Source: Paraburkholderia sp. (GTDB taxonomy: Bacteria > Pseudomonadota > Gammaproteobacteria > Burkholderiales > Burkholderiaceae). From it: a stretch of DNA of 64,000 nt. The notes beneath the pieces were generated by a model. That model was not told where the DNA came from. It saw only the letters and a list, made by a program, of their open reading frames with translations, and did not search any database. Positions 33,402-35,395 of this stretch are shown here, one piece after another (position 1 is the first letter of the stretch; each line of letters opens with the position of its first letter). The position numbers and the translations under genes are program-made. Where the stretch lies: NCBI GenBank assembly GCA_004322045.1, contig SCRN01000040.1, forward strand, positions 372,001-436,000. Reading direction: 5' to 3'.

Positions 33402-33950
33402 ATGAAAACCGTCGGCGACAAACTCGAAGCGTTCACCGTCACCGCTGCAAAGCCGGGCTTTAACCACCACGAAGAAAACGGTCAATCGGCATTCGAAGAG
33501 ATCACCGAACAGTCGTTCCCGGGCAAGTGGAAGATCATCTACTTCTATCCGAAAGATTTCACGTTCGTTTGCCCGACCGAAATCGTCGAATTCGCCCGGC
33601 TGAAAAAGGACTTCGAAGAGCGTGAAGCCGTGCTGCTCGGCGGCAGCGTCGACAACGAGTTCGTCAAGCTCGCCTGGCGCCGCGAGCACAAGGACCTCGA
33701 CAAGCTGAACCACTACGCGTTCGGCGACGTCAAGGGCGAGCTGATCGACCAGTTGGGCGTGCGCGACAAGGAAGCCGGCGTGGCCCTGCGCGCGACGTTC
33801 ATCGTCGATCCGGACAACACGATCCAGCACGTGTCGGTCAACAACCTGAACGTCGGCCGCAACACGCAAGAAATTCTGCGTATCCTCGACGGCCTGCAAA
33901 CGGACGGGCTGTGCCCGTGCAACCGCTCGGTGGGCGGCGCGACGCTGTAA
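33402..33950 (+). CDS. ahpC: Alkyl hydroperoxide reductase/peroxiredoxin AhpC
   Basis: 182 aa two-cysteine peroxiredoxin. Peroxidatic Cys57 sits in FTFVCPTE and resolving cysteines Cys171/Cys173 in GLCPCNR near the C-terminus. It reduces H2O2, organic peroxides and peroxynitrite. In Burkholderia and mycobacteria this form is paired with AhpD as its reductant, but the ahpD gene that should follow is reduced to a stub here, so another electron donor must serve it. ATG at 33402 with AGGAG upstream. Confidence 0.95.
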   Translation: MKTVGDKLEAFTVTAAKPGFNHHEENGQSAFEEITEQSFPGKWKIIYFYPKDFTFVCPTEIVEFARLKKDFEEREAVLLGGSVDNEFVKLAWRREHKDLDKLNHYAFGDVKGELIDQLGVRDKEAGVALRATFIVDPDNTIQHVSVNNLNVGRNTQEILRILDGLQTDGLCPCNRSVGGATL

Positions 33951-33966: not shown

Positions 33967-34004
33967 AAGCCCGCTATGGTCTCTCAAAGCCGGCGGGCTT
34001 TTTT
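33967..34004 (+). terminator. Intrinsic terminator after ahpC
   Basis: AAGCCCGC (33967-33974) pairs perfectly with GCGGGCTT (33993-34000) across 18 bases, and the T-run extends to 34004. It lies between ahpC and the ahpD stub. Confidence 0.7.
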
Positions 34005-34029
34005 ATCGACACAGCGATAGGAGAAAACG

Positions 34030-34095
34030 ATGAAATTCTTGAATTCGATTGAGGCACTCATCCCCGACTATGCGAAGGACATTCGCCGCCGCTGA
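34030..34095 (+). pseudogene. ahpD: 5' remnant of ahpD (21 codons) fused to the 3' end of ispF
   Basis: AGGAG, a 6-base spacer and ATG open a frame reading [19 protein letters not shown], which matches the N-terminus of AhpD alkylhydroperoxidase (usual length about 175 residues). After about codon 19 the match stops, two arginine codons follow, and TGA is at 34093-34095. The catalytic CxxC region is absent, so no activity is possible. The rest of the stretch is already the antisense strand of ispF. A deletion between ahpD and ispF explains this best. Confidence 0.85.
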
Positions 34096-34561
34096 GCAAT
34101 ACGACGGCCTGCGCCTCGATTCCTTCCCCCCGGCCCAAATAGCCGAGTTTTTCGTTCGTCTTGGCTTTGACGTTCACGCAGCCGATAGGCAGCGCGAGAT
34201 CCTCGGCCAGGTTGACGCGCATGGCCTCGATATGGGGCGCGAGCTTCGGCGCCTGAGCGATGACCGTGCTGTCCACGTTCACGATGGCAAAGCCCGCCTG
34301 CTTGATGCGCGCCGCACACTCTCGCAGCAGCACACGGCTGTTCGCGCCGGCGAAACGCGTGTCCGTATCGGGGAAATGACGGCCAATGTCGCCCAGCCCC
34401 GCGGCGCCGAACAGCGCGTCGGTCACGGCATGCAGCAGCACGTCCGCATCCGAGTGGCCAAGCAAACCACGTTCGTAGGGAACGGTCACGCCACCGATGA
34501 TGAGCGGGCGCCCGGGCACCAACGCATGGACGTCGTAGCCCTGTCCGATTCTGAAATTCAT
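34058..34561 (-). CDS. ispF: 2-C-methyl-D-erythritol 2,4-cyclodiphosphate synthase
   Basis: 167 aa enzyme of the MEP isoprenoid pathway. Metal ligands are in GYDVHAL (D10, H12), with [28 protein letters not shown] and [25 protein letters not shown] as signature stretches. The last 9-10 residues (GECPSHSRG) are encoded by the antisense strand of the ahpD remnant, so the native stop has been lost and the C-terminus is foreign. The catalytic core is complete, so the enzyme is probably active. Downstream of ispD, 114 bp apart. Confidence 0.95.
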
Positions 34562-34675: not shown

Positions 34676-35395
34676 CTATCGCACGCCGTGCGGCGGATCC
34701 TGCGTCAAGATGGCCTCGGCAAGCGCGAAGTCTTCTGGATACGTGACCTTGAAGTTGCGCAAGCTGCCCTGCACGAGGCGCGGCGCATGCCCCAGCCATT
34801 CGACCGCGCTCGCCTCGTCGGTCAAATCGTGCCCGTCGCGCTCGGCCCGCGCGATCGCCTCGCGCAGCATGCCGATGCGAAACATCTGCGGCGTCTGCGC
34901 CTGCCATAAGCCATTGCGCGACTCGGTGCGTGCGATGCGATCGCCCTGATCGATGTCGACGCGCTTGAGCGTATCGGCCACGGGCAGCGCCATGATTCCG
35001 CCCACCGGGTCGCCGGCGAGCGCGGCAATCAGCGAGCGAATGAGCGCGGGCGTGATGCCGGGCCGCGCCGCGTCGTGTACGAGCACCCAGTCGTCGTTGC
35101 TCGCACCGAACGCTGCCAGCGCGTCGAGCCCGTTCTTCACGGACGCTTGCCTTGACGCACCGCCGCACCGCCGCACGGCAAAGCGCAATGGGGCGAAACG
35201 GGCTTCGTCGAAGTGCGTATCGTCGGGCGAAATGACGACAAGCGTTTGCGAAAGGTCGTCGCAGGCATCGAACGCGGCGAGCGTGAAATACAGCAGTTCG
35301 CGCCCGGCCAGCGTGCGGTATTGCTTGGGCATCGGCGCGCCGGAGCGGCTGCCGGTGCCCGCGCAAGGAATCAGTGCGAAAAAGCGGGAAGTCAC
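34676..35395 (-). CDS. ispD: 2-C-methyl-D-erythritol 4-phosphate cytidylyltransferase
   Basis: 239 aa. The CTP-binding loop [17 protein letters not shown] and the motif [11 protein letters not shown] identify IspD, which attaches CMP to methylerythritol phosphate, two steps before IspF in the same pathway. The start is GTG at 35395 (codon read as Met); no in-frame ATG exists before the conserved [12 protein letters not shown]. Divergent from mfd. Confidence 0.95.

Follow-up and report, generated by a model that had tools for sequence, protein, structure and literature searches.

Deletion of ahpD beside ahpC in a Paraburkholderia genome and coupled changes in AhpC among relatives that lack AhpD

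The ahpC-ahpD-ispF locus

The window, i.e., the whole stretch of 64,000 nucleotides analysed here, comes from a Paraburkholderia genome of 6.0 Mb (54 contigs, completeness 100), in which ahpC is followed by a remnant of ahpD fused to the end of ispF. The features of the locus, in window positions, are as follows.

33402..33950, plus strand: ahpC, its 182-aa product being of the three-cysteine type (C57, C171, C173); from the sequence and a family search
33967..34004, plus strand: terminator-like hairpin in the ahpC-ahpD spacer, 8-bp arms, 18-nt loop, T run after it; an inverted repeat
34019..34024, plus strand: AGGAGA, ribosome-binding-like; read by eye
34030..34095, plus strand: ahpD stub ORF of 21 codons, its ahpD part being 34030-34087 (19 codons and one base); from the sequence and alignment to the sister genome G009
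34087..34088, no strand: deletion junction, 597 bp absent relative to G009; from alignment to G009
34058..34561, minus strand: ispF, 167 aa, intact core, residues 3-156 matching Pfam YgbB; from the ORF and a family search
34058..34087, minus strand: new IspF tail GECPSHSRG and stop, from antisense ahpD; from the sequence and alignment to G009
34676..35395, minus strand: ispD, upstream of ispF; from the ORF

An earlier note on this DNA had described a ribosome-binding site and an ATG opening an AhpD N-terminus that passes into the reverse strand of ispF, and both the coordinates and the sequence proved correct. The stub of 19 codons given there holds for the ahpD sequence, which continues for one more base, and not for the reading frame, which has 21 codons. 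Mapping of the breakpoint against the close relative G009, as proposed in that note, showed that the first 58 bases of ahpD remain and that the antisense 3' end of ispF begins at 34088. The junction is blunt, with the left match to G009 ending at 34087 and the right one starting at 34088; no microhomology (no bases shared in the comparison with G009) was found at this point, and two copies of CATTCGCC are present in the corresponding G009 stretch, a two-step deletion being no more than conceivable. It is a plain deletion, which took all of ahpD after base 58 together with the ahpD-ispF intergenic stretch and which, as part of the overall reading given below, we consider a recent and real event. 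The CMD domain, which in AhpD is complete and carries a CxxC redox motif, is absent from the stub (it spans residues 94-172 in G009). The hairpin at 33967..34004 was also seen by eye in AhpD-bearing relatives; a consensus terminator scan with a loop limit of 8 did not report it, its loop being 18 nt.

As for IspF, its residues 1-158 are normal, and the protein scores 223.5 bits against TIGR00151 (cut-off 116.45) over residues 4-156, its closest named relative being that of Trinickia terrae (89%). The loss of the ispF stop and the origin of the tail in antisense ahpD, claimed earlier, were confirmed: the last nine residues and the stop occupy 34058-34087, and the IspF of G009 ends in LSGSAQAA, unlike the window protein. 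That the ispF-ahpD fusion is functional in itself and the new tail has a role could be argued from the open frame, which extends nine residues beyond residue 158. However, IspF tails after about residue 156 vary among the lineages compared, and the best stretches matching known structures stop at IspF residues 152-164. We rejected a role for the tail, given these differences between lineages, and see next to no chance of a functional fusion; the tail was probably gained without consequence.

Absence of AhpD in the window genome and its relatives

A protein search for a second AhpD in the window genome returned 0 matches at E 1e-3. The search for ahpF recommended there found AhpF on contig C46, where it adjoins a second AhpC (locus L111, 1091-1654), which is of the CPA type, ends in CPAKWKEG and has no third cysteine. 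We take AhpF to be the reductant of this CPA-type AhpC.

Among the 11 genus-group genomes, the window genome included, AhpD matches were found in eight. The gene order ahpC-ahpD-ispF, which the note had given for relatives, was borne out by eight of the ten other genomes of the group, where a full 175-aa AhpD is encoded between the two flanking genes. The nearest genome, G009, has AhpD, and because of this the loss in the window is younger than the split between the window genome and G009 (AhpC dS 0.126). The other two genomes, G003 and G006, have no ahpD through deletions different from that of the window, with 52 and 19 bases, respectively, between the stop codons of ahpC and ispF, and by eye they are also without the ahpC-ahpD hairpin. 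At the G006 locus (L142) the loss of ahpD is complete and the AhpC tail reads PCPSNR.

In the family as a whole, 199 of 299 genomes have an AhpD match (E 1e-3) and 227 have an AhpC match (E 1e-40). Comparison of the genome lists by hand gave 30 of the 227 with AhpC and without an AhpD match, or 31 without an intact AhpD once G124, whose ahpD is truncated, is added; two genomes have AhpD without an AhpC match, namely G150 (weak) and G226, in which the ahpC tail pattern described below was found. The window is thus one of many AhpD losses, and AhpC persists after the loss.

Three side observations concern the same gene neighborhood. G124 (locus L305, 2431-3817), from another genus group, provides a second case of the window architecture: some 85-90 codons of its ahpD remain before the sequence passes into antisense ispF, and its AhpC tail is still canonical. 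The opposite case is G271 (L220), where ahpC is open for just 27 codons from its start and adjoins a full-length ahpD match. In one AhpD-lacking clade the gap between ahpC and ispF measures 1.3-1.4 kb; we considered a replacement AhpD there and rejected it, as in the three loci read (L282, L283 and L284) the former place of ahpD is taken by an open frame of 385-390 codons, presumably acyltransferase 3-like, which runs in the direction of ispF. A similar frame occurs in L258 beside an intact ahpD.

For the evolutionary analysis, a tree of 82 rows (53 with and 29 without AhpD) was built from HK, IspF and IspD; left out were seven duplicates, one row that lacked IspF/IspD, and those in which HK was missing or fell below 60% identity. 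Its AhpD-lacking rows comprise 26 of the 30 AhpD-lacking genomes (all except G011, G020, G024 and G044), G124, and the named contigs L018 and L019. On the best tree the presence of AhpD switches 11 times, and treating its loss as irreversible gives 11 as well.

The AhpC tail

In the window AhpC, the peroxidatic C57 is present in the motif VCPTE and the tail reads DGLCPCNR, so that C171 and C173 are both kept and E169 is replaced by Gly; for the AhpD partner of such a three-cysteine, AhpD-type AhpC this genome has no match. The wider tail pattern Q-T-x-E-x-C171-x-C173-N-R, searched as one DNA pattern in the 299 family genomes, does not match the window because of E169G. It was found in 206 genomes. 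Where AhpC and AhpD both match, 197/197 genomes have it, G124 and G271 among them, as compared with 8/30 where AhpC alone matches; the remaining genome is G226. The reversed control pattern had no match in any of the 299 genomes. At 80 loci from AhpD-matched genomes the C-x-C tail is present in 79/79 full-length AhpC proteins, that of G124 among them, the 80th locus being that of G271 with its early in-frame stop in ahpC.

Of the 30 AhpD-lacking genomes, 19 have lost C173: in 18 of them Ser, Asp, Gly or Ala stands in its place, whereas in G059 a stop comes before C171. It is kept in the other 11 (the window genome G000, G003, G011, G020, G023, G024, G043, G044, G200, G269 and G296), with Lys at the place of E169 in G024 and G044, where both cysteines are kept. 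C57 is retained in 29/29 and C171 in 28/29 of the AhpD-lacking tree rows. Beyond the family, we surveyed 250 genomes of the order, and 13 outside the family have an AhpC of this type (E 1e-60): C-x-C is present in 11/11 with AhpD (E 1e-30) and in 2/2 without it (G350 and G500), so that no C173 loss was seen among these 13 genomes.

In G059 (loci L287 and L160), a genome in which AhpD has no match, a TAG interrupts ahpC ahead of C171, and the product would have neither of the tail cysteines.

Besides E169G, the window AhpC carries K66R and D75E, all three at positions that never vary among the 53 tree rows with AhpD. K66 is changed in three and D75 in five other AhpD-lacking lineages, and E169 in the window alone among the tree rows. 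These substitutions bear on the possibility that an assembly error hides an intact ahpD, as might happen in a single draft assembly of 54 contigs. However, the locus lies on a 560-kb contig, the clean junction keeps ispF open, and G003 and G006 lost ahpD by other deletions; an error is also disfavored because the window AhpC has already changed at residues linked to AhpD, with Gly in place of an E169 that the tail pattern recovers in 197/197 AhpD-matched genomes, and with three residues altered that are invariant in the AhpD-bearing rows. On these grounds we rejected an assembly error as very unlikely.

Changes in AhpC after the loss of AhpD

On the 82-row tree C173 was lost six times, and all six losses fall on AhpD-lacking branches, which make up 0.196 of the tree length; the chance of such an outcome is 0.196^6 = 5.7e-5, assuming irreversible loss and that the best tree is the true one. 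An independent-pairs sign test was not significant: well-supported inner branches number 21/79, the six independent pairs on such branches gave a median p of 0.5, and C173 follows AhpD in 2.1 pairs on average and goes in the opposite direction in 0.0. AhpD is gone and C173 present in eight rows from six lineages, and the reverse was never observed in the AhpD-matched genomes examined; AhpD was therefore lost first.

In a separate test, which does not hinge on C173 alone, we counted for each row the columns that are invariant in the other AhpD-bearing rows and changed in that row, seven distant rows being omitted. Ten AhpD-lacking lineage representatives, chosen by hand, have 2-19 such changes in AhpC, whereas the 47 AhpD-bearing rows have at most 3, with a median of 0 (Mann-Whitney p 4e-10, a value flattered by the relatedness of the rows). 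The same count gave p 0.27 for HK, 0.38 for IspF and 0.02 for IspD, the latter with 0-2 changes, and the medians over all 28 AhpD-lacking rows were 16.5 for AhpC, 2 for HK, 1 for IspF and 0 for IspD. The change after AhpD loss is thus confined mainly but not entirely to AhpC, with HK and IspF not following and IspD rising at most weakly. The three changes in the window are no more than those of the highest AhpD-bearing row. The positions changed in the most AhpD-lacking lineages are H96, D75, T54 and H23 (6/11 each), followed by C173, I161, A125 and E63 (5/11 each, the stop of G059 uncounted).

The AhpC dN/dS ranged from 0.044 to 0.163 in seven AhpD-lacking pairs vs. 0.008-0.069 in four AhpD-bearing pairs, all chosen by hand and with overlapping ranges. 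In mixed pairs it was 0.105 for window/G009 (0.025 for HK), 0.050 for window/G007, 0.025 for G003/G004 and 0.094 for G006/G002. A raised dN/dS would also come from partial decay, and it might be supposed that AhpC, once AhpD is gone, is a mere passenger that will be lost in turn, with no working reductant, while the second AhpC and AhpF do the work. The presence of this pair, the faster change of AhpC once AhpD is lost, and the stop before C171 in the ahpC of G059 are what such a passenger would lead us to expect. Against it stand the values far below 1 in 15/15 pairs computed, the retention of C57 and C171 reported above, and the open ahpC kept by a clade of 15 AhpD-lacking rows, and we regard it as unlikely. 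Because the two cysteines are kept and dN/dS is low, the AhpD-less AhpC looks instead like a two-Cys peroxiredoxin under selection.

The electron donor of AhpC without AhpD

The earlier note stated that such an AhpC is dependent on AhpD, and that the strain must use another reductant. The first statement is too strong: AhpC persists without an AhpD match in 30/227 genomes, and the AhpC of Burkholderia thailandensis is also reduced by TrxC in vitro, with a kcat/Km of 0.79e5 per M per s as compared with 4.29e5 for AhpD with cumene hydroperoxide (PMC6626918). TrxC was likewise described as reducing mycobacterial AhpC (PMC5505994). The second statement is likely, TrxA, TrxB and AhpF all being encoded in the window genome, and we too infer another donor. 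By analogy with these systems, thioredoxin would be the likeliest one for the window AhpC, because the genome encodes TrxA and TrxB.

The replacement donor could instead be AhpF or another CMD-domain protein, as the genome encodes the former and has 11 CMD-domain matches. Yet AhpF adjoins the second AhpC with the CPA tail and so has its own neighbor to serve, and no protein of the window genome reaches E 1e-3 to AhpD; this alternative seems to us somewhat less probable even than that of a passenger AhpC. The AhpC-AhpF system is encoded here as well, and the window AhpC differs from its AhpC in subtype, scoring 117 bits where TIGR03137 has its cut-off at 272.

Our preferred reading, to which we assign a probability of roughly 0.7, is that of a real and recent ahpD deletion, after which AhpC still works through another donor and loses stepwise the residues that AhpD required. 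The enzyme would act as a two-Cys peroxiredoxin, with C57 peroxidatic and C171 resolving, and would receive its electrons from a different thiol donor, for which thioredoxin with thioredoxin reductase is the likeliest candidate. Released from AhpD, it would shed the residues needed by AhpD only, other residues of the body and tail going first, which would be the stage of the window, and the third cysteine, C173, later.

The third cysteine and its significance

In B. thailandensis, C57 is peroxidatic and C171 and C173 are resolving, the same residue numbers as in the window AhpC; both AhpD and TrxC reduce the enzyme there, whereas in the window ahpD is deleted and positions invariant in AhpD-bearing rows are changed (PMC6626918). 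The three-cysteine AhpC of Mycobacterium tuberculosis and M. bovis has the same arrangement as C61, C174 and C176, and AhpD is present in these organisms, unlike the window and a minority of its relatives, where AhpD is lost and C173 often lost too (PMC5505994 and PMC12028322). According to the model of Guimaraes, as cited in PMC5505994, the disulfide C61-C174 is converted to C174-C176, which is then attacked by a thiol of AhpD or TrxC. The role of the third cysteine was called unknown in a paper of 2019 (PMC6417708), and that of the M. tuberculosis enzyme not determined in a review of 2025 (PMC12028322), and it is at the role of this puzzling residue that the joint pattern of C173 and AhpD hints.

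From this pattern we read Cys173 as a relay chiefly serving AhpD. A more detailed version, to which we would give slightly better than even odds, is that C173 together with a set of other residues, H23, T54, D75, H96, D168 and L170 among them, forms the AhpD-specific part of AhpC, that the C173 relay is selected only while AhpD is the donor, and that loss of ahpD leads stepwise to a two-Cys, thioredoxin-fed enzyme, the window representing the first step. Counting against it, C173 is kept in 11/30 AhpD-lacking family genomes, that of the window included, and in 2/2 outside the family, so that its loss is not an invariable consequence. Moreover, each of the single mutants C171S and C173S of B. 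thailandensis AhpC was reported to be active whether AhpD or TrxC served as donor (PMC6626918), which does not fit a role of C173 with AhpD only; its importance may be confined to conditions in vivo. In the literature covered, i.e., titles and abstract openings, with most subscription papers beyond scope, no link between AhpD and Cys173 was found, and a report elsewhere is possible.

The informative part of the locus is the coupled change in AhpC and not the ispF junction, and it is because of this coupling to ahpD loss that the window deserves attention. The repeated natural loss of AhpD, followed by loss of C173 in several lineages, is evolution's own experiment: it names residues to test and supplies natural before/after pairs of AhpC, predicts that the AhpD-less AhpC is served by another donor, and suggests that a peroxiredoxin can switch donors without being lost. 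A structure search with the window AhpC placed the mycobacterial three-cysteine AhpC structures PDB 7bz6 and 2bmx at the top, one stretch being aligned over residues 2-182.
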